A stretch of DNA of 58,662 bases. Source: Gemmatimonadota bacterium (lineage in GTDB: Bacteria; Gemmatimonadota; Gemmatimonadetes; Longimicrobiales; Longimicrobiaceae). Location: NCBI GenBank assembly GCA_031260285.1, contig JAIRKD010000055.1, positions 1 through 58,662 on the forward strand, written 5' to 3'. The number at the start of each line of letters is the position of its first letter. Within the stretch, counting starts at the first letter, position 1. The translations under genes and the position numbers were made by a program. Shown here one piece after another: positions 44,396-55,423 of the stretch. The notes under the pieces were generated by a model. It was not told where the DNA came from. It searched no databases and was given only the letters and a program-made list of their open reading frames with translations.

Positions 44396-45265
44396 ATGAA
44401 GACGTTTTCCATAGGGATTCTCCTCCTCGCGCCGCTGATCGCCGCGGGCGCGGTGTCCCGGAACGGAGCGGCCGCCGGGACTGCCGGAGAAACGCATGCC
44501 ACGGCTTTCAGGACGGCGAGTTCCGCGGCTGATCAGTTCCCCCGCCAGTCCCGGGGTGGCTTCTATGGTGCCGAGGGAGACGAAGACGAGACGTACAGCT
44601 TCTACTTCTCCCGCGCCGCCTACGGAAGCGGGGGTCGTTTTGGGCGTTCTGCGTGGGCCACCGACTATCCCGACGCTGATGTCTGGATCACCAACGTCCT
44701 CCGTCGCCTCACCGGTGTGGACGTGGCGCCTTACGATCATGTCGTGCGCCTCGATGATCCGAAGCTGCGGCGCTTCCCCTTCCTCTATGCAGTAGAGGTC
44801 GGTTCCATGGGGCTCGCGCCCGCCGAGGTACAGGGACTGCGTGAGTACCTCCTCGCGGGGGGGTTCCTGATGGTGGATGACTTCTGGGGCGCGGGACAGT
44901 GGGAGAACTTCGAATGGGAGATCGGTCAGGTTCTGCCGGAGTATCCGATCGTGGAAATCCCTCTCGACCATGAGATCTTCTCCTCGTATTACGCAATCAG
45001 AGAGGTGATTCAGGTCCCCAACGTCAATAACGGGATCGCGGTCGGGATGGGAGCGCCGGGGGCGCGAACGGAAGAGTGTCCGGGGTGTTCTCCCCATATC
45101 TTCGGGATTCTGGATGACAAGGACCGGCTCCTCGTGATCATCAACTGGAACTCGGACCTCGGCGACGCCTGGGAACACGCGGAAAACCAGCGTTATCCGC
45201 TTATGTACTCGACTTACGCGTATCAGGTGGCGGCGAACTTCATCATCTACGCGATGACGCACTGA
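44396..45265 (+). CDS. DUF4159 family exported protein
   Basis: 289-residue protein with an N-terminal hydrophobic signal (MKTFSIGILLLAPLIAAGAV). The DUF4159 domain starts at about 50 (YSFYFSRAAYGSGG, AWATDYPDADVWITNVLRRL) and includes FPFLYAVEVGSMGLAPAEVQ, LREYLLAGGFLMVDDFWGAG and EIPLDHEIFSSYY, ending with YAYQVAANFIIYAMTH. The fold is related to class I glutamine amidotransferase-like and often sits next to vWA and MoxR genes. Function unknown. ATG 44396 is preceded by GAGGAG at good spacing; earlier in-frame starts lack it. It opens the large plus-strand cluster that runs to the end of the window. Confidence 0.88.
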   Translation: MKTFSIGILLLAPLIAAGAVSRNGAAAGTAGETHATAFRTASSAADQFPRQSRGGFYGAEGDEDETYSFYFSRAAYGSGGRFGRSAWATDYPDADVWITNVLRRLTGVDVAPYDHVVRLDDPKLRRFPFLYAVEVGSMGLAPAEVQGLREYLLAGGFLMVDDFWGAGQWENFEWEIGQVLPEYPIVEIPLDHEIFSSYYAIREVIQVPNVNNGIAVGMGAPGARTEECPGCSPHIFGILDDKDRLLVIINWNSDLGDAWEHAENQRYPLMYSTYAYQVAANFIIYAMTH

Positions 45266-45328: not shown

Positions 45329-47599
45329 ATGGCTCTGGGCATCTGGCAGTTCTTTCTGAAGTATCCGCCGCTCGTGTACGAGAAGGGCCGGATCGTCTTC
45401 CTCTCTCCGCTTCCGGGGTGGCTCCTCCTCGCAGCGGTGGTGGTCGCGGTGGTGGCGGGTATCAGTTACTTCCGGCGCGGCGCCACTCTGCCCCTGCCCG
45501 ACCGGCTGGGGCTCATCGCGCTGCGCGGAGGGCTGCTGGCGCTCCTCCTGGTGCTGCTTCTCCGGCCGACACTCCAGGTGCCTGTCGCCGTTCCCCAGGA
45601 GAACTACCTGGGCATCCTCGTGGACGACTCCCGCAGCATGATGGTCGCGGACGGCAGCGCGACCAGCCGGGGTGATGAGATCCTCTCCACACTGAACACC
45701 GAGCTGCTCGCAAAGCTCTCCGAACACTTCCGGCTCCGCATCTTCCGGTTTTCGGGAGACGCGACCCGGATCGAAACAGTCGGCGACCTGACCTTCAACG
45801 GAGGTGAAACCCGGATCGGACGGGCGCTTGATCAGGCGCGCAACGAACTTGCGGGCGTACCCATCGCGGGACTTGTTGTTGTCAGCGACGGCGCAGACCA
45901 GTCCGAGGCGGAGCTGAACGAAACGCTGATCAGCCTGCGCACCAGCTCCGTACCCGTCTATACCGTTGGCGTGGGGCGCGAAGCCTTTGCCCGCGACGTT
46001 GAGATCCGCCGCGTCTCCAGCCCCCGCTCTGTCCTCAAGGGGACCTCCACGATGGTGGATATCGTGGTTGCCCAGACCGGATACGCCGGGAAGACGGTGC
46101 CTCTCATCGTGGAGGACCAGGGCCGAGTGGTCAGCTCGCAGGATGTGGTTCTTCCGGCGGACGGCACTCCCGCGACCGTCCGGGTGAACTTCACGGCGGA
46201 AGAAGCTGGCTGGCGCCGGTTCCGGTTCCGCGTTCCCCTTCAGGACGGCGAACTGGTGACCGCGAACAACGATCGGAACGCACTGATCGAGGTCCGCGAG
46301 GGACGTCAGAAGATCCTCTACTTTGAGGGCGAACCCCGGTTTGAGGTGAAGTTCCTGCGTCGCGCGGTGGATGAAGACGAGGAGCTCCAGCTGGTTGTTC
46401 TGCAGCGTACAGCGGAGAACAAGTTCCTCCGCCTGGCCGTGGACGACAGCGAGGAGCTCGCGGATGGATTCCCGATCACCCGGGAAGAGCTCTTCCAGTA
46501 CCGGGCTCTTGTGATCGGCAGCGTGGAAGCAAGCTTCTTCTCCCGCGAGCAGATGCGGATGATCGTCGAGTTTGTGAACGAGCGCGGCGGCAGCGTACTC
46601 TTCCTCGGCGGCAAGCGGGCGTTCTCCGAAGGTGGATACGCCGGCACTCCGCTCGCCGACCTGATGCCCGTTGAGCTCAACGAGAGAGGGGACCCGGGTT
46701 ACTACCGGGAGCTGAAGGTGGCTCCCACCCGCGCGGGCCTCACCAGCGCGGCACTGCAGCTTGATCCGGATCCGGCGGTCTCCGCCAGCATATGGGCGGG
46801 CCTTCCCGAGCTTTCGACCTTCAACCAGCTCACCCGGCTGAAGCCCGGCGCAACAGCGCTGCTCACCGGTTCCGGACCAAGTGTTCCGGAAGGTCAGATT
46901 GTTCTCGCGTCACAGCGCTTCGGCCGCGGGCTGGCGCTTGCCCTGCCCGTCCAGGATACCTGGATCTGGCAGATGCACTCGTCCATTCCCCTGGAAGACC
47001 AGACCCACGAGACCTTCTGGCGGCAGATCATGCGCTGGATGGTCAACGAGGTTCCGGACCAGATGACGCTGACCACTTCAGCCGAGCCGGCGGCGCTGAA
47101 CCAGACGGTCCAGATCAGCGCTGACCTGCGCGACAAGGGCTTCCAGCGCATCAACGACGCGCTTGTCTCGGCCCTCATCGAGTCGGCGGATGGCACAACC
47201 AACGAACTGCCGCTGCGCTGGACGAACCGGCGTGACGGTGAATACGAAGGCGCCTTTGTGCCGCTCGCCAGCGGCCTCCACCAGATCCGCGTCCAGGCGG
47301 TACGGGGAGACTCAACCGTCGCCAGCGCTCTGCTCACGCTTGATGCGGTAGAGGACAACGGCGAATTCTTCAACGCCCAGATGCGCTCTCCGCTTCTCCG
47401 CCGTATCGCGGATGAAACGGGAGGCCGGTTCTACACTCTATCTGACATCAACCGCCTCCCTGAGGAAGTCGACTTCTCCGGCAGCGGAATCACCCGCGTC
47501 GAGAGCTACGACCTCTGGGATATGCCCCTGGTCTTCCTCCTCATCATCATGCTGGTTGGCGGTGAGTGGGGACTCCGGCGACTGAGAGGACTCCCGTGA
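45329..47599 (+). CDS. Membrane vWA / glutamine-amidotransferase-like protein
   Basis: 756-residue membrane protein. Two N-terminal helices (about 31-47 and 62-79) precede a von Willebrand A domain starting YLGILVDDSRSMM with the MIDAS motif D99-x-S101-x-S103 and later VVVSDGADQSEAE. An Ig-like region follows (about 205-325), then a class I amidotransferase-like domain (about 330-590; GSVLFLGGKRAFSEGGYAG), a beta-rich part, and a C-terminal helix (about 730-745). This arrangement is found in large BatA-related proteins linked to MoxR ATPases. The soluble bulk should be periplasmic. The next gene begins at a GTG overlapping this stop. Partner in the cluster is probably MoxR and the DUF58 protein. 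Confidence 0.85.
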   Translation: MALGIWQFFLKYPPLVYEKGRIVFLSPLPGWLLLAAVVVAVVAGISYFRRGATLPLPDRLGLIALRGGLLALLLVLLLRPTLQVPVAVPQENYLGILVDDSRSMMVADGSATSRGDEILSTLNTELLAKLSEHFRLRIFRFSGDATRIETVGDLTFNGGETRIGRALDQARNELAGVPIAGLVVVSDGADQSEAELNETLISLRTSSVPVYTVGVGREAFARDVEIRRVSSPRSVLKGTSTMVDIVVAQTGYAGKTVPLIVEDQGRVVSSQDVVLPADGTPATVRVNFTAEEAGWRRFRFRVPLQDGELVTANNDRNALIEVREGRQKILYFEGEPRFEVKFLRRAVDEDEELQLVVLQRTAENKFLRLAVDDSEELADGFPITREELFQYRALVIGSVEASFFSREQMRMIVEFVNERGGSVLFLGGKRAFSEGGYAGTPLADLMPVELNERGDPGYYRELKVAPTRAGLTSAALQLDPDPAVSASIWAGLPELSTFNQLTRLKPGATALLTGSGPSVPEGQIVLASQRFGRGLALALPVQDTWIWQMHSSIPLEDQTHETFWRQIMRWMVNEVPDQMTLTTSAEPAALNQTVQISADLRDKGFQRINDALVSALIESADGTTNELPLRWTNRRDGEYEGAFVPLASGLHQIRVQAVRGDSTVASALLTLDAVEDNGEFFNAQMRSPLLRRIADETGGRFYTLSDINRLPEEVDFSGSGITRVESYDLWDMPLVFLLIIMLVGGEWGLRRLRGLP

Positions 47600-48621
47600 C
47601 AGCTATTTCCGGCCCCGGCAACAGGGGCTCTGTGATGTCTCTGATCCGGACCGCGACAAGGTTGAGGAAACCCTCCTCCTCGCGATCCACAGCCATGCTC
47701 TTCGCGGCGGCTCTTGCGGTCACCCCTTCGGTGGCCGCGGCACAGGCGCAGCTGCTCATCATCGGCGGGCTGGGCGGTGAACCCCGTTACGTGGACGACT
47801 TCCACCGCTGGGGAACCGCGCTGGTTGACGCCGCGCGGGGACGCATGGGCCTCCCCGCGGAGAATGTGATCTTTCTCTCCGAAGATCCCGCCCGCGACCC
47901 GACGCGCATCAACGGCGAATCACGGCGCGAAAATATCGAAAGCGCCATGCGTGATATGGCCCGGCGGGCCGCTCCCGAAGATCGAATCATGATTGTCATC
48001 TTCGGGCATGGCAGCTCCGATACCCGCGGCTCCCGGGTCAATCTGCCCGGTCCGGATATCACCGCGAAGGAATACGGAGAGCTGCTCGGGGTCTTCGGAA
48101 GCCGGCCGGTGGCGTTTGTGAATACCGCCAGCGCCAGCGGTGACTTCGCAGACGTCCTCGCCGGACCGAACCGCGTGATCATCACCGCAACCCGCTCGGG
48201 GCTCGAAAAGAACGAAACGAAGTTCGGCGGTTTTTTTGTTGATGCATTTGCCCGTGACGGGGCAGACGCGGACCGCAACGGCCGTGTCACCCTGCGCGAA
48301 GCGTTTGACTATGCCCTTCGCGAAACCCGACGGGCGTACGAGATGGCCAGCCAGCTGCAGATGGAGAACGCCCGGATTGAAGGGGACTCCACCTTCATCA
48401 CCGTCTTCAGCATCCAGAACACCTCCGCCGCGCCCACGGGCGCTTCGGTTGAAACGGAAGCGCTCTTTGCGCGCCGGCGTGAACTCGAGGCATCCGTGGA
48501 TGCCCTCCGGCTCCGCTCCGGCCAGATGGACCCCGCTGAGTACGCGGCGGAGTTCGAACGTCTCCTCCTGGAGCTGGCCCGGGTGAACCAGAGTATCCAG
48601 GCGGCGGGGGGTACAGAGTAA
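47596..48621 (+). CDS. Caspase/legumain-fold protein lacking the catalytic cysteine
   Basis: 341-residue exported protein (hydrophobic signal ending AAAQA). Order of elements follows the clan CD (C13/C14) fold: strand LLIIGGLGGEPRY, SRRENIESAMRDMARRA, the catalytic-type His in IMIVIFGHGSSD (His138), then VAFVNTASASGDF where active relatives have a Cys (DACxSG); here the position is Ser179. Further on, DADRNGRVTLRE (224-235) is a perfect EF-hand-type calcium loop. The C-terminal 80 residues form a coiled coil (RRRELEASVDALRLRSGQMD). It may be an inactive, calcium-sensing scaffold or a Ser-dependent variant. GTG 47596 is chosen (GTGA overlap and GAGAGGA upstream). The stop overlaps the next ATG (TAATG). 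Confidence 0.8.
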   Translation: MTAISGPGNRGSVMSLIRTATRLRKPSSSRSTAMLFAAALAVTPSVAAAQAQLLIIGGLGGEPRYVDDFHRWGTALVDAARGRMGLPAENVIFLSEDPARDPTRINGESRRENIESAMRDMARRAAPEDRIMIVIFGHGSSDTRGSRVNLPGPDITAKEYGELLGVFGSRPVAFVNTASASGDFADVLAGPNRVIITATRSGLEKNETKFGGFFVDAFARDGADADRNGRVTLREAFDYALRETRRAYEMASQLQMENARIEGDSTFITVFSIQNTSAAPTGASVETEALFARRRELEASVDALRLRSGQMDPAEYAAEFERLLLELARVNQSIQAAGGTE

Positions 48622-51143
48622 TGGGTATCATCCGTTATCGTGGCGTCGCGGCCCTGGTATTTGCGCTCCTTCTGCCGGTTGCCGCGTGCGCCCAGCAGGA
48701 CGCGGGATCCGCTGCCGCTGCCCTCACAGGCGGCCGCTACGATGACGCGATCCGCATCGCCAGCGCGGATCTTCGCGCTGGTGACGCTGCCTCCCGGGAG
48801 ACGCTTGTCCGCGCACTTCTGGATGTGGGTCGCTACGATGAAGCGGTTGAGGCGGCGGAAGGCCTGCCGCTCCTCCGGGGCGAAGCACACTTCGCCCGCG
48901 GCCGGCTCACCGAAGCGGATGCCGCATTTGCGGAGGCCGTCACAAATGGCGGGGCAGACCGGCTTACGGCAGAGCTGCGCCGCGCGGAGATCCTCTGGCT
49001 GCGTGGGAACCGCGAAGAGGCACGCACTGCCTTCAACCGCTTCATCGATGTCTACAACCGCTCCGACCAGCTTCCCGCTGAAGATCTGACCGCGGTTGGA
49101 AATGCGGTCTGGTACCTCGGTGGCCGGGAGTCCGCTCTCTTCCAGGACGCGGTTCTCGCTTTTGACCAGGCTACCCGGCGCGACCCCCGGGCGATTGAAC
49201 CCCACATCCGCCTCGCGGAGCTGTTCATCGAGAAGTACAGCGCCCAGGAAGCCGCTGACGCGCTGGGTGACGCACTGGCGATCAACCCGAATCACCCTCG
49301 GGCACTGCTCGCCAAGGCGCGTCTCCGCTCCTTCGAGAACGCCCGTGGCGAAGCGATGGATCTGGTTGGCCGGGCGCTTCAGGTGAACCCGAACCTCGTG
49401 CCCGCGCTGCTCTTCCGCGCCCGCATGAACCTGGACACGGAGAACTGGGACGAGGCGGAAAAGGACCTCCATCTCGCGCTTGAAGTCAATCCGTCCTCGC
49501 TTGAGGGGCTCTCAACACTGGCGGCGCTGCACTACGTCCGGAACGACCAGCGTCAGTACCGTGAGGTCAGTGACCGGGTCCGCTCTCTTAATCCGGGGTA
49601 CGCGGGGCTGCTGACCACCGTGGCGGAGATCGCCGCGCAGGTCCGTCTCTACCGTGACGCTGCCGACCTCGCCGCCCAGGCAGTTGAACTGGATCCGGAG
49701 TCCTGGTCAGCGTACTCGGTTCTGGGGCTCAACCTCTTCCGGACGGGGCGGATCGAGGAAGCGAAGGCCGCTCTCAACCGCTCCTTTGCGGGTGATCCGT
49801 ACAATGTCTGGATCAAGAACAACCTCGACCTGCTGGATACCTTCCGGGAGTACGAGGTCCGTTCACCCGACGCGCGTCTCTCGTTCATGCTTCGCGCTGA
49901 CGAGGCGGACCTGCTCTATCCCTATGCGGTGCAGGCCGCTACCGAAGCACTTGAGAGTCAGATTTCCCGCTACGGCATGCGCCCCCGGGGCTCCGTCCGT
50001 GTCGAATTCTATCCGCGCAGCGCGGACTTCTCGGTGCGTACGGTTGGCCTTGCCGGCCTCGGAGCGCTGGGCGTCAGCTTCGGAGATGTTCTTGCACTTG
50101 ATGCGCCTTCTGCCCGGGAACCCGGCAGCTACAACTGGCTGACCACCCTCTGGCATGAGATGGGGCACACAGTGGCACTGGAGGTGAGTGGCAACCGCGT
50201 CCCCCGCTGGCTTACGGAGGGGATGTCGGTTGTTGAAGAGCGATATACAACACCCGGCTGGACTCCGGCTATCGCGCCCGAGTTCATCGTTGCGTACGAT
50301 GAGAAGCAACTTCCGCCGGTCAGTCGGCTGAACGAAGGGTTCATCCGGCCTCCAACGCCGCAGCATCTCAGCCTCGCCTACCAGATGGCCTCGCTGGTTG
50401 TTGAATGGATCCAGGAGACGAGGGGCTTCAGCTCGCTGATCACGATGCTCCGCGCCTACAACGATGGCCAGTCCACCGCGCAGGTGCTGGAGGGAGTGCT
50501 GGGCGCCTCACCGGAGCGGATTGACGAGGAGTTTGACCGCTGGCTGCGGAACCGTGCGGACCCCGCCCAGGCACGCGCATACCTCGATGCTCTCCACGAG
50601 GCAGGGGAACAGGTAGCCAATGGAGAGAACGAGAAGGCGGTGATCACCCTCAACCGGGCGAAGACTCTCTTCCCGCCGGGAGGTGGAACCGCGGCCAATG
50701 CACTGCTGGCGCGTCTCCAGCTTCAGATGAACGATGAGGCGGGTGCAATCGAGTCGCTTGCTGAATACACGAAGTACGACGAGAACGCCTACCGGGCGAA
50801 CCTCGAACTCGCCGGTCTGCTCAACAAGAAGGGGGACAGTGCAGGCGCGCTGCTGGCGCTTGATCGTGCGGTATGGATCTATCCCTACGAGCTTGAGCCG
50901 CACCAGCGGCTTGCGGATCTGGCTTCCGCGCAGGGGAACCATACCATTGCGGTCCGGGAGCGCAGGGCGGTGATCGGCCTTCGTCCGACGGATATGGCGG
51001 GCGCCCGCTACCAGCTGGCGGAGGCGCTCCTCCAGGCGGGCCAGCGTGATGAAGCCCGCGTCGAGGTGCTGCGCGCCCTGGAGATCGCGCCCGGCTATGC
51101 TGAAGCACAACAGCTTCTACTCCGGCTCCATGAGCCGATCTGA
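48621..51143 (+). CDS. TPR lipoprotein with HExxH metallopeptidase (peptidase MA-like) domain
   Basis: 840-residue lipoprotein (lipobox VAAC, Cys23). TPR-type helical repeats fill about 30-410 (ALDVGRYDEAVEAAE, AAFAEAVTNGGADR, ADALGDALAINPNHPRALLAK, AEKDLHLALEVNPSSLEGLS). A gluzincin-like domain of the peptidase MA type follows: LTTLWHEMGHTVALEV (zinc ligands His512, His516, catalytic Glu513) and VPRWLTEGMSVVEE with the third ligand Glu533. More TPRs complete the C-terminus (about 660-840). Likely a membrane-anchored peptidase whose repeats bind a substrate or partner. It overlaps the preceding stop and is followed after 99 bases by moxR. Confidence 0.87.
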   Translation: MGIIRYRGVAALVFALLLPVAACAQQDAGSAAAALTGGRYDDAIRIASADLRAGDAASRETLVRALLDVGRYDEAVEAAEGLPLLRGEAHFARGRLTEADAAFAEAVTNGGADRLTAELRRAEILWLRGNREEARTAFNRFIDVYNRSDQLPAEDLTAVGNAVWYLGGRESALFQDAVLAFDQATRRDPRAIEPHIRLAELFIEKYSAQEAADALGDALAINPNHPRALLAKARLRSFENARGEAMDLVGRALQVNPNLVPALLFRARMNLDTENWDEAEKDLHLALEVNPSSLEGLSTLAALHYVRNDQRQYREVSDRVRSLNPGYAGLLTTVAEIAAQVRLYRDAADLAAQAVELDPESWSAYSVLGLNLFRTGRIEEAKAALNRSFAGDPYNVWIKNNLDLLDTFREYEVRSPDARLSFMLRADEADLLYPYAVQAATEALESQISRYGMRPRGSVRVEFYPRSADFSVRTVGLAGLGALGVSFGDVLALDAPSAREPGSYNWLTTLWHEMGHTVALEVSGNRVPRWLTEGMSVVEERYTTPGWTPAIAPEFIVAYDEKQLPPVSRLNEGFIRPPTPQHLSLAYQMASLVVEWIQETRGFSSLITMLRAYNDGQSTAQVLEGVLGASPERIDEEFDRWLRNRADPAQARAYLDALHEAGEQVANGENEKAVITLNRAKTLFPPGGGTAANALLARLQLQMNDEAGAIESLAEYTKYDENAYRANLELAGLLNKKGDSAGALLALDRAVWIYPYELEPHQRLADLASAQGNHTIAVRERRAVIGLRPTDMAGARYQLAEALLQAGQRDEARVEVLRALEIAPGYAEAQQLLLRLHEPI

Positions 51144-51153
51144 GACGGTACGT

Positions 51154-51168
51154 CCGCCACAAGGGCGG
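51154..51168 (+). terminator. Weak hairpin before the MoxR gene
   Basis: CCGCC (51154-51158) and GGCGG (51164-51168) pair around five bases and are followed by GTTTATT. It could give partial termination, raising or lowering the ratio of upstream to downstream products. Confidence 0.35.
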
Positions 51169-51242
51169 GTTTATTGGCACGACCGACGCTCCGGCGGCGG
51201 TTCTATCCACTCACCGATAGCGGGAGCATCAGATTGTCGTCC

Positions 51243-52271
51243 ATGATCAATTCGGCGGTGCTTGGGAGCGATGAAGACCTTGAGCTCGCGGAAAAACTGA
51301 AACAGGGTCACGAACGGATTCTCGTAGAACTGCGCAAGGCGATCATCGGGCAGGAGACGGTGGTTGAGCAGCTTCTTCTTTCACTCTTCGTGGGCGGCAA
51401 CTCCCTTATTCTGGGTGCGCCGGGCCTCGCAAAGACGCTGCTTGTCCATTCGCTTGCCCAGGTGCTGAACCTCAAGTTCAACCGCATCCAGTTCACCCCG
51501 GACCTGATGCCCTCGGATATCACCGGGACCGACATCATCCAGGAAGACCCTGCCACGGGCAGGCGGCAGATGGTCTTCTCACCAGGACCGATCTTCGCCA
51601 ATATCGTCCTGGCGGACGAGATCAACCGGACGCCCCCGAAGACCCAGGCGGCGCTCCTGGAAGCGATGCAGGAGCACCGCGTCACAATCCAGGGCCGCAC
51701 CTATACCCTGGAAGAGCCGTTCTTTGTCTTCGCGACGCAGAACCCGATCGAGCTTGAGGGTACCTATCCCCTCCCGGAAGCCCAGCTTGACCGCTTCATG
51801 TTCGAGATCATCATCGATCACCTGCCGGAGGAGCAGGAGCTTGAGGTGATCCGGGCGACAACCTCGCCCTCAAAACCGGTCTTCGAACGGGCGGTATCCG
51901 GTGAGGATATCATTGCCTTCCAGCGTCTGGTACGGCGCGTTCCGGTGCCGGATCCGGTGATGCGGTACGCTCTCGCGCTGGTACGCACGACCCGGCCGAA
52001 CGCCGAGGGACCGGTCCCGCCGTTCATCAAGAACTGGGTCGCCTACGGAGCCAGCGTTCGCGCTGCCCAGTTCCTTACGCTCGGCGCCAAGGCCCGCGCA
52101 CTGATGGCCGGCCGCCCGTATGTGGACTTCGACGATGTGAAGGCTCTGGTACACCCGGTTCTCCGGCACCGGATCCTCACGAACTTCCATGCAGAGTCCG
52201 AGCGGGTCACCACAGATCAGATCATCGACCAGCTGGTCGCCGTGGTACCGATCCCCCGTTCGGGGATGTAG
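51243..52271 (+). CDS. MoxR family AAA+ ATPase
   Basis: Chaperone-like AAA+ ATPase of 342 residues. Walker A GAPGLAKT (58-65), Walker B LADEINRTPPKTQAALLEAM (123-142), sensor 1 FATQNPIELEGTYPLPEAQLD with the arginine finger region after it, and the C-terminal lid domain are intact. MoxR proteins hexamerise and remodel vWA-containing partners to insert cofactors or assemble complexes. ATG 51243 (MINSAVLGSDED) is used; the reading frame extends to an ATG at 51174 without family character. It is followed after 126 bases by the DUF58 gene, the standard pair. Confidence 0.93.
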   Translation: MINSAVLGSDEDLELAEKLKQGHERILVELRKAIIGQETVVEQLLLSLFVGGNSLILGAPGLAKTLLVHSLAQVLNLKFNRIQFTPDLMPSDITGTDIIQEDPATGRRQMVFSPGPIFANIVLADEINRTPPKTQAALLEAMQEHRVTIQGRTYTLEEPFFVFATQNPIELEGTYPLPEAQLDRFMFEIIIDHLPEEQELEVIRATTSPSKPVFERAVSGEDIIAFQRLVRRVPVPDPVMRYALALVRTTRPNAEGPVPPFIKNWVAYGASVRAAQFLTLGAKARALMAGRPYVDFDDVKALVHPVLRHRILTNFHAESERVTTDQIIDQLVAVVPIPRSGM

Positions 52272-52397
52272 GAGCAACCCCTCCGGCGGTGTCGCTGCTG
52301 ACGCCGCCGGATGCCGGAACGTACGCGGCGGGTGCCGTTCCCCGGCTGGACCGGAGCGCCGGAACCCTTTCGGAAGTCTTTCGAAGAGAAGGATCTG

Positions 52398-53321
52398 ATG
52401 GCGAATTCAGCAGTAGTCAACGACTCCCTCGGGCGGTTTCTCGATCCCCATGTCCTCGCGCGGATCGGGAATCTCGAACTGCTTTCCCGGTCGGTGGTCA
52501 CAGGCTTCATCAACGGTCTCCACCGGTCGGCGAACCTGGGGCTTTCCATGGATTTCGCCGAACACCGCGGCTATATGCCCGGCGACGATATCCGACGGGT
52601 CGACTGGCGGCTGTTTGCGCGCACCGACCGCTTCTACATCAAGGAGTTCGAGGCAGATACCAACTCGAACTTCGTGACGGTTCTGGATGTGTCCAGCTCG
52701 ATGAACTACACGGGCGCCGGCATCCGCAAGATCGACTACGCCCGCTACCTCGCTGCCTGCCTGACCTACTTCGTCAAGGGACAGCGGGACCGGATCGGCC
52801 TGGTCACCTTCGATTCGAAGGTGGTGGATTACGTGCCGCCTTCCGCCCGGCATCTGGATACCATTCTTCACACCCTCAACCGGATTGAACCGGGAACGGG
52901 TCGGAAGGGTGACCTGAAAGAACCGCTTCACCGCGCTGCTGACCGTCTCCGCCGGAAGGGGATGATCGTCCTGATCTCGGACCTCTACGAGGATCCGGAG
53001 AAAGTGATCGAGGCGATCAAGCCGCTCCGGGGTCGCGGCCATGAGCTGATGGTCTTCCAGATTCTGGATCCGAACGAGATCAACTTCCCGTTTGAGAACC
53101 CCAGCCTCTTTGAGGATCTGGAGAGTGGAACCCGGCTGCCCATCAGCCCCGCGGCGCTCCGGGAGCGCTACCGGGAGTCGATGAACACCCATCTTTCCAC
53201 GCTTGCCCGTCTTTTCCGGGAGAACCATGTGGAGTACGCCCTGCACAACACGGCGGAACCCCTGGACTTCGCCCTGTTCGACTTCCTCTCCGCGCGTGAG
53301 CGCATGAGCAAAGTTCGCTGA
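52398..53321 (+). CDS. DUF58 domain protein (vWA-like)
   Basis: 307-residue cytoplasmic partner of MoxR. The DUF58 signature RGYMPGDDIRRVDWRLFART (57-76) with FYIKEFEADTN after it is fully conserved, and a vWA-type MIDAS DVSSS (97-101) follows. Start at 52398 (MANSAVVNDSLGRF) has AAGGAT at good spacing; an ATG at 52311 would add 29 residues with no homology. The stop shares its A with the start of the BatA-like gene (TGATG). The set MoxR-DUF58-BatA is a conserved module in many bacteria, sometimes linked to aerotolerance or envelope stress. Confidence 0.92.
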   Translation: MANSAVVNDSLGRFLDPHVLARIGNLELLSRSVVTGFINGLHRSANLGLSMDFAEHRGYMPGDDIRRVDWRLFARTDRFYIKEFEADTNSNFVTVLDVSSSMNYTGAGIRKIDYARYLAACLTYFVKGQRDRIGLVTFDSKVVDYVPPSARHLDTILHTLNRIEPGTGRKGDLKEPLHRAADRLRRKGMIVLISDLYEDPEKVIEAIKPLRGRGHELMVFQILDPNEINFPFENPSLFEDLESGTRLPISPAALRERYRESMNTHLSTLARLFRENHVEYALHNTAEPLDFALFDFLSARERMSKVR

Positions 53322-55423
53322 TGTCTCTGAGTTTCCTCGTTCCAGCGTTCTTCGCGGGGCTGCTCGCGCTCGCGATTCCGGTTCTGATCCACCTGTCGCG
53401 GCGCGACACGCGGAATCCGGAGCATTTCCCGTCGTTCATGTTCCTGGACAAGGTCCCCCAGAACCGGACCGAGAAACGCCGGATCCACCGCTGGCCGCTC
53501 TTCATCCTCCGCAGTCTGGCGATCGCGCTGCTGGTGCTCGCCTTTGCCCGGCCGTTCCTGGCAGGGAATGAAGATTCCCCGGCGGGCGCGACGGGAGGCG
53601 ACCGTGAGGTGGTTGTCCTGCTCGACCGCTCCTACAGCATGGATGCGGGCGACCGGTGGCAGCGGGCAACCAGCGCCGCGGAGGAAGTGATTTCCGGACT
53701 TTCGGGTGGCGACCGGGGAACAGTGATTCTCTTTGATACCGGCGCGGAAACAGCTTCGGAATCCACAAACGATCGCGGGGTTCTGCGCACCGCCATCCGC
53801 GATGCGCGCCCGGGTTCGCGGAAAACACGTTACGCTCCGGCGCTGCGTTATGCCGCGCGCGTGCTTTCAGCATCCCCCCTTCCCCGTCAGGAACTGGTGG
53901 TCATCTCCGACTTCCAGCGCGGGGGGTGGGACGCGGATGGTGGAGAGACCTCCTCGCTGCGGCTTCCCGCCGGAACCCTGATCTCCACAGTCAACGTGGT
54001 GAACGACGGGGACACGGGTGTCAACATCGCCGTCACCGGGGCGGACTTCGACCGGCAGGTGGTCACGGAGCGCGAGCGGGTGACGGTGACCGCACGGTTC
54101 GCCTCGAATGGCGGCGTGACAGGTGACATCCCCGTCTCGCTGGAGATCAACGGCCGTCCGGTGGAGACACTCTCCCTGAACTTCGGCGAGGGGAACAGCG
54201 GCAGCATCAGCTTCAGCGCGATCACACTTCCGGAAACGGGAGTCACCCGCGGTACAGTGCGCATCCCGAACGACCTGCTTGCGGCGGACAACGTCTTCAA
54301 CTTCGTTCTCTCCTCTGATCAGCGGATCCCCGTTCTGATCATGGAGAGCGGGACCTCCCGGACCGGCGGCAGCTACTTCCTCGAACGTGCGCTGTCCGTG
54401 AGCGGCACTCCGGGGTTCAAACCCGAGGTCCGGCGTGGTGGCGAGATCCGCCCGATGGACCTGGCTTCAAATCCGGTGGTGATACTGAACCAGGCACCCT
54501 TCCCCGGCGGGGCGTCGGGTGAACGGCTCCGGCAGTATGTGGAACAGGGGGGCGGCGTTGTGATGGTTCTCGGCGACGCACAGCCCGGTGACTGGTCGGG
54601 TGTTCTGCCCAGCATCCCCGCACCCGTGGACCGGATGCGTGACGGGGGAACCACCCTCGGCTATGTAGATATGGGGCACCCGGTCTTCGAAGCGTTTGCC
54701 GGCCCGCGCTCCGGTGACTTCGGTTCACCCCGCTTCTACCGTTACCGGCCCTTCCCCTCGGAATCGTTCCCGAGAGTGCTCGCGCGCTTCGGTGACGGGG
54801 GCGTCGCTCTCGCGGAACGCTCGATCGGGGACGGGAAGCTCCTGATCTGGACCTCAACGCTGGATACGGACTGGAACGACCTCACCCTTCATCCGGTGTT
54901 CCTGCCGTTCCTTCATCAGCTGACGCGTTACGCGGCCGGCCATGCGCCGCCACCCAGCTGGCATACCATCGGCGACCCGCTGGATGTGCGTGGGTTCCTG
55001 CGCGCTGACCAGCGTTCCGCGATTGCCGTCACCCCCCGTGACCAGCAGGTCGAGGTGGATACCGGAACACCGCTTGAGCTTACGGAAACCGGGTTCTACG
55101 AGCTGCGTGACGCTCGCGGTGGCCAGCAGCTCGCGGCATACGCGGTGAACGTGGATATCTCCGAATCCGAGCTGAGCAGCTTTGACCCGGAAGAGATGCA
55201 GACAGCCCTGGTGGCTGCCGCCCAGGCTGCACCCTCCTCCTCAGAGCTGTCCGGCCTCTCGATCACGGAACGGGAGCGCATCCAGGGCGGATGGTGGTAC
55301 CTCATCCTGGGAGTGTTCACTCTCCTTCTGGCTGAGACGTTCTTCTCGAACCGGGGCGCGGCCGGCCGTGATGCACTGATGGACCGGTGGCGTTCCTTCC
55401 GGCGGGGAAGTCTCGCGGGCTGA
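53321..55423 (+). CDS. BatA-like membrane vWA protein
   Basis: 700-residue membrane protein. The N-terminal BatA region is clear: LVPAFFAGLLALAIPVLIHL followed by RRDTRNPEHFPSFMFLDKVP and a second helix (about 60-78). The vWA domain then begins VVVLLDRSYSMDAG (MIDAS D102-x-S104-x-S106). The middle of the protein (about 200-560) holds Ig-like and amidotransferase-like parts (GERLRQYVEQGGGVVMVLGD), similar to the vWA protein at the start of the cluster. A C-terminal helix lies at about 662-680. Its stop is followed by a 162-base spacer before the DUF4175 gene. Confidence 0.9.
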   Translation: MSLSFLVPAFFAGLLALAIPVLIHLSRRDTRNPEHFPSFMFLDKVPQNRTEKRRIHRWPLFILRSLAIALLVLAFARPFLAGNEDSPAGATGGDREVVVLLDRSYSMDAGDRWQRATSAAEEVISGLSGGDRGTVILFDTGAETASESTNDRGVLRTAIRDARPGSRKTRYAPALRYAARVLSASPLPRQELVVISDFQRGGWDADGGETSSLRLPAGTLISTVNVVNDGDTGVNIAVTGADFDRQVVTERERVTVTARFASNGGVTGDIPVSLEINGRPVETLSLNFGEGNSGSISFSAITLPETGVTRGTVRIPNDLLAADNVFNFVLSSDQRIPVLIMESGTSRTGGSYFLERALSVSGTPGFKPEVRRGGEIRPMDLASNPVVILNQAPFPGGASGERLRQYVEQGGGVVMVLGDAQPGDWSGVLPSIPAPVDRMRDGGTTLGYVDMGHPVFEAFAGPRSGDFGSPRFYRYRPFPSESFPRVLARFGDGGVALAERSIGDGKLLIWTSTLDTDWNDLTLHPVFLPFLHQLTRYAAGHAPPPSWHTIGDPLDVRGFLRADQRSAIAVTPRDQQVEVDTGTPLELTETGFYELRDARGGQQLAAYAVNVDISESELSSFDPEEMQTALVAAAQAAPSSSELSGLSITERERIQGGWWYLILGVFTLLLAETFFSNRGAAGRDALMDRWRSFRRGSLAG

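Follow-up and report, generated by a model that had tools for sequence, protein, structure and literature searches.

Gene content of the locus

The window, as the whole stretch of DNA analysed here will be called, comprises 58,662 nucleotides from a Gemmatimonadota bacterium and carries on its plus strand a run of seven genes. The first encodes a DUF4159 protein with a signal peptide (44396..45265; Pfam E 2.4e-42) and is followed by a gene for a VWA/GATase-like membrane protein with two transmembrane segments (45329..47599), in which a GATase1-like match is weak (E 0.012). The third gene, the subject of this study, encodes an exported protein resembling the C13/legumain peptidases (47635..48621). 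Downstream of it lie genes for an exported TPR protein with an apparently intact gluzincin motif, HEMGH...WLTEG, from residue 512 onward (48621..51143), a MoxR AAA+ ATPase (51174..52271; Pfam AAA_3 E 1.9e-61), a DUF58 protein (52311..53321; Pfam E 1.2e-45) with the MIDAS motif DVSSS, and a BatA-type VWA protein with two transmembrane segments (53321..55423; Pfam BatA E 8.8e-20) and the MIDAS motif DRSYS. Three other DUF4159 genes are found elsewhere in the window genome, on contigs C3 and C48, and no paper on DUF4159 was found among the open-access papers searched.

The reading frame of the legumain-like protein is intact in the window, ends with its stop codon at 48621 and yields a product of 328-341 residues. 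Two start codons are possible: GTG 47596, which overlaps the stop codon of the preceding VWA gene, and ATG 47635, with a Shine-Dalgarno-like AGGGG 7-8 bases to its 5' side. A Sec-type signal peptide (approximately 47635..47742, with cleavage near AAA-QAQ) is recognised by a hydrophobic run and an AXA-like site, and the position of 'AQ.TH' is conserved in the orthologues; the signal extends to about residue 49 and no further transmembrane segment follows. Beyond it, the clan CD domain occupies approximately 47746..48381 and contains, in order, GHGSS with His138 (48007..48009), the equivalent of the catalytic His, then NTASASG with Ser179 (48130..48132) and Ser181 (48136..48138), and the EF-hand-type loop DADRNGRVTLRE (residues 224-235; 48265..48300). 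A C-terminal helical hairpin or coiled-coil tail (48448..48603) completes the protein. Cysteine is absent from the entire window protein, counted from GTG 47596.

Predicted fold and distribution

Together with the window protein, 28 orthologues were used to compute an AlphaFold model, whose mean pLDDT is 87. Human legumain is its best match in a Foldseek comparison with the PDB (E 4.6e-10; TM 0.62 when normalised by the length of the target, legumain), and the top matches consist of legumains and plant asparaginyl endopeptidases, followed by the GPI transamidase complex and metacaspases. Given these structural matches of the model, the window protein is assigned to clan CD, with C13 as its nearest family. 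The preliminary description, which had spoken of an exported protein of caspase/legumain fold, was thus right on both export and fold. The tail is modelled as two helices (272-293 and 300-323 in model numbering) that are conserved in the orthologues, with pLDDT values mostly of 85-98 in this block.

Sequence searches reach the same family less directly. The window protein scores 16.4 bits against Pfam C13 (PF01650), under the curated cut-off of 22.8, and Pfam and NCBIfam return nothing for it beyond this sub-threshold match. The C13 model is nevertheless matched at E<=0.1 by 13 of 29 orthologues, with a best value of 4e-9, and its cut-off is passed by some orthologues (G049, G009, G183 and G185). 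A single-sequence search of PDB sequences with the window protein gave no match; a profile search matched metacaspases, though over no more than the N-terminal half. The C14 p20 model (PF00656) is absent from the window genome and is matched in one of the 29 orthologues (E 2e-4).

Orthologues are present in up to 125 of 249 Gemmatimonadota genomes and in up to 64 of 199 Acidobacteriota genomes, the weakest matches in either phylum being other caspase-fold proteins; most of these genomes are metagenome assemblies, and they were assigned to the two phyla by their record titles. Contigs were scanned for orthologues with a single peptide pattern, of which the profile searches were independent, and the most distant orthologues also lack the catalytic Cys. 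Conservation was assessed on 167 non-redundant members (<90% identity) from the two phyla. When the profile of this family is aligned with that of Cys-bearing bacterial caspase-fold proteins from the same phyla (hhalign, E 3.8e-18), Ser179 is matched with the Cys of DACHSG and Ser181 with its Ser, His138 with the His of GHG, and the EF loop with an EF loop.

A putative calcium-binding loop shared with Cys-bearing relatives

The 12-residue loop ahead of the helical tail is complete, as had been described at the outset. It has D or N at positions 1, 3 and 5 and E at position 12, as expected of an EF-hand loop, and is placed by the model between two predicted helices. Across the family, positions 1 (Asp224) and 12 (Glu235) are invariant (167/167) and positions 3 and 5 are always D, N or S. 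The loop had also been taken for an insertion, and this view has to be abandoned: the Cys-bearing caspase-fold proteins L162, L163, L265, L266 and L267 carry ADEDGDHIVTLVEL, ADRDGDGIVSMDEL and similar sequences at the aligned place, which excludes a new insertion peculiar to the window protein.

The initial suggestion that the protein senses calcium loses ground for the same reason. A sensor would bind Ca2+ reversibly through the EF loop and thereby switch the pseudo-peptidase between states. Both the strict conservation of the ligands and the second acidic loop, DDNGDG, that 107 of the 167 members possess would agree with such a role. However, the second loop has been lost in the window lineage, the window protein retaining one canonical EF loop only, and calcium in the periplasm does not usually act as a fast signal. 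Since this single loop occupies the same place in Cys-bearing caspase-fold proteins, sequence comparison makes an old, structural Ca2+ site likelier than a sensor, and reversible switching is an unlikely account of the family.

Two further observations concern the same region. The second acidic loop is of the type LDDNGDGEGS (Excalibur/DxDxDG-like), lies beyond the EF loop, for example in L012, and is found neither in the window protein nor in the three relatives closest to it. Glu257 (48364-48366), which belongs to the 'TEHA' strand following the EF helix, is present in 167 of 167 members and is possibly a second metal ligand or a pocket residue.

A recurrent operon

The order DUF4159, VWA/GATase-like protein, pseudo-peptidase, TPR-gluzincin, (DUF4159), MoxR, DUF58 and BatA recurs in both phyla. 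A VWA gene lies immediately 5' of the pseudo-peptidase gene in 112 of the 116 loci with room for it, 106 of them detected by script and six (L148, L154, L169, L213, L214 and L215) by eye, owing to overlapping or split matches. Downstream, MoxR, DUF58 and BatA are found in 84-85 of the 88 loci with room and the TPR gene in 77; these locus counts are partly non-independent, as some loci come from the same genome fetched again. In 78 of 88 loci the TPR and MoxR genes are separated by a second DUF4159 gene, which is absent from the window (51143-51174) and from L275, a locus of the same genus.

Among 61 related genomes, the pseudo-peptidase and VWA genes are concordantly present or absent in 58 (Fisher p 8e-14, uncorrected for kinship), and the three discordances (in G027, G029 and G050) all lie at contig ends. 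Both genes are missing from many members of the window's own family, so that gain or loss seems to affect the unit in its entirety. Given the weak GATase1-like match of the VWA protein and the likewise exported DUF4159 domain, the envelope part of the operon may consist largely of enzyme-like folds devoid of catalytic residues.

The gluzincin encoded directly downstream, with its HExxH...WLTEG intact, offers another possible role for its neighbour: a dominant-negative or inhibitor-like pseudo-peptidase could capture substrates, either to shield them from this metalloprotease or to present them to it. The frequency of the TPR gene given above speaks for such a pairing. However, Acidobacterial loci, of which L079, L083, L105 and L111 are examples, have kept the pseudo-peptidase gene without the TPR-gluzincin, so that the metalloprotease is not an obligate partner, and substrate capture on its behalf appears rather improbable.

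Family-wide loss of the nucleophile

The column aligned with the catalytic Cys is occupied by Ser in 146 of the 167 members, Thr in 11, Pro and Glu in three each, and Asp, Ala, Asn and Gly in one each; Cys occurs there in none of them. His138, in contrast, is invariant, together with Asp224, Glu235 and Glu257. The replacement of Cys by Ser with retention of the His, as first read from the window sequence, is therefore borne out by the profile alignment. Whether the Ser is fixed among orthologues, a question raised at that time, can now be answered: Ser179 varies and ranks only 47th of 285 columns by conservation, and the near-invariant residue is Ser181 (165/167). The latter is best read, from the alignment, as a structural residue of the ...SG motif, because the Cys-bearing relatives have a Ser there as well. 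Such conservation of His138, Asp224, Glu235 and Ser181 speaks against chance as the source of the motifs read in the window.

On an orthologue tree built from the columns outside the motif, the residue at the nucleophile position changes at least 14 times, and at least six of these changes are between Ser/Thr and residues that are not nucleophilic. The acidic residue found two positions before the Cys in the relatives (DAC, EAC or DCC) has mostly become T, A or L. A nearby Cys cannot stand in for the nucleophile in the window protein, which has none, and the Cys in the TSCSG or TTCSG of three distant members lies one position past the nucleophile column. Neither a different active-site Cys nor a fold outside clan CD was thus found.

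An active hydrolase or transpeptidase relying on Ser179 or Ser181 and the retained His, the other possibility entertained in the preliminary description, would suit the prevalence of Ser and Thr at position 179, the invariant His and the conservation of Ser181, yet it is very improbable in view of the ten members in which Pro, Glu, Asp, Ala, Asn or Gly has repeatedly arisen at 179 with the rest of the protein and the operon conserved, of a Ser181 common to Cys-bearing relatives and of the lost acidic residue. Since replacement by Pro, Glu or Gly would not be expected of a catalytic Ser in an otherwise fixed protein, the sequences strongly support a family of non-peptidases that has lost its activity, and of the two readings first proposed, that of an inactive scaffold is now strongly favoured. 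Even so, the Ser or Thr of most members could be read as a weak nucleophile, and the invariant His138 could point to some residual chemistry.

A putative binding subunit of an envelope machine

Sequence and model together support the fold, the export signal, the kept His, the family-wide loss of the Cys, the EF-type loop, the helical tail and the fixed place in the operon. The loss of the cutting residue across two phyla, in a gene whose place beside those for an ATPase and VWA membrane proteins is nevertheless kept, makes the pseudo-peptidase most likely a binding part rather than an enzyme. In the reading that we consider probable, the protein belongs to the legumain/C13 branch of clan CD and is secreted into the periplasm as a pseudo-peptidase. 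There its fold, stabilised by calcium, would hold a peptide or a partner, and the protein would serve as an adaptor within an envelope machine of the MoxR-DUF58-BatA/VWA kind.

According to this model, the pseudo-peptidase would not cut. Instead, its old substrate groove, its helical tail or both would hold a ligand, whether a peptide, a protein partner or the VWA domain of the upstream gene's membrane product. Calcium, to judge from the motif, would stabilise the caspase-like fold. The adaptor would act in the periplasm, while the cytoplasmic MoxR ATPase might remodel or mature the complex or its client, by analogy with studied MoxR/VWA pairs. More tentatively, a MIDAS VWA membrane protein might have as its dedicated partner a phylum-wide periplasmic pseudo-enzyme of legumain fold, which would carry Ca2+ and act as its ligand or peptide receptor. 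The two would then belong to a MoxR-driven system for envelope assembly, uncharacterised so far and made up in large part of catalytically dead enzyme folds.

As a rule, pseudo-proteases branch off sporadically from families that are otherwise active. In this case the catalytic Cys is missing from every examined member of an entire legumain-like family, in both phyla, yet the family is strongly constrained and linked to a single operon. The MoxR-DUF58-BatA machinery, unexplained so far, would thereby be credited with a periplasmic binding subunit of its own, and a defined gene becomes available for finding its client. A practical consequence is that such genes should not be annotated as C13 or caspase peptidases.

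Comparison with known systems

In its predicted fold, its GHG His and the placing of its ...SG motif, the family agrees with clan CD enzymes such as legumain. The family differs from legumain and C13 in lacking the catalytic Cys and the acidic residue before it and in having an EF-type loop and a helical-hairpin tail. Judged from its sequence by the defining residue, the window protein is not an active C13 peptidase.

Pseudo-orthocaspases of cyanobacteria and other bacteria are caspase-fold proteins whose Cys has been replaced, often by Ser, and which are presumed inactive (PMC6426788). These C14B proteins mostly lose the His too (Tyr-Ser), whereas in the window family the His is invariant, the closest fold is C13, and the protein is secreted and bound to an operon. 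Defined by a Pfam C14 p20 domain with both His and Cys substituted, pseudo-orthocaspases do not include the window protein, which keeps its His. SERA5 of Plasmodium likewise has Ser in place of the catalytic Cys, retains the His and acts non-enzymatically in vivo (PMC4671257); as a papain-fold protein (clan CA) it is unrelated by descent, and the resemblance is one of analogy only.

Dead caspase-like domains beside MoxR-vWA pairs are already known and, with SERA5, are the nearest precedents for the binding role proposed above. In the MoxR-vWA ternary conflict systems, inactive caspase-like domains are fused to vWA and have been proposed to bind peptides or to act as dominant negatives (PMC7159879), so that a domain of this kind next to a MoxR/vWA pair is not new as such; the novelty claimed earlier for this type of cluster holds in so far as none was found in the searchable literature for the BatA/DUF58 operon type. 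The conflict systems of PMC7159879 have fused effector domains and a MoxR-vWA lineage derived from CoxD/CoxE, while here a separate secreted protein belongs to a DUF58/BatA-type operon. No VMAP, iSTAND or FtsH-type component appears among the Pfam matches of the seven operon proteins, and PADLOC gave no strong match for the four operon proteins submitted to it.

With the Bat (Bacteroides aerotolerance) operons the window shares MoxR and BatA-type VWA genes in one cluster, to which it adds DUF4159, the VWA/GATase-like protein and the pseudo-peptidase, none of them mentioned for Bat operons in the part of the source considered here, where the Bat proteins and their MoxR are said to have no settled function (PMC3557215). 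The MoxR ATPases that have been studied act together with VWA proteins in maturing or remodelling protein complexes, NorQD being an example (PMC9976466).
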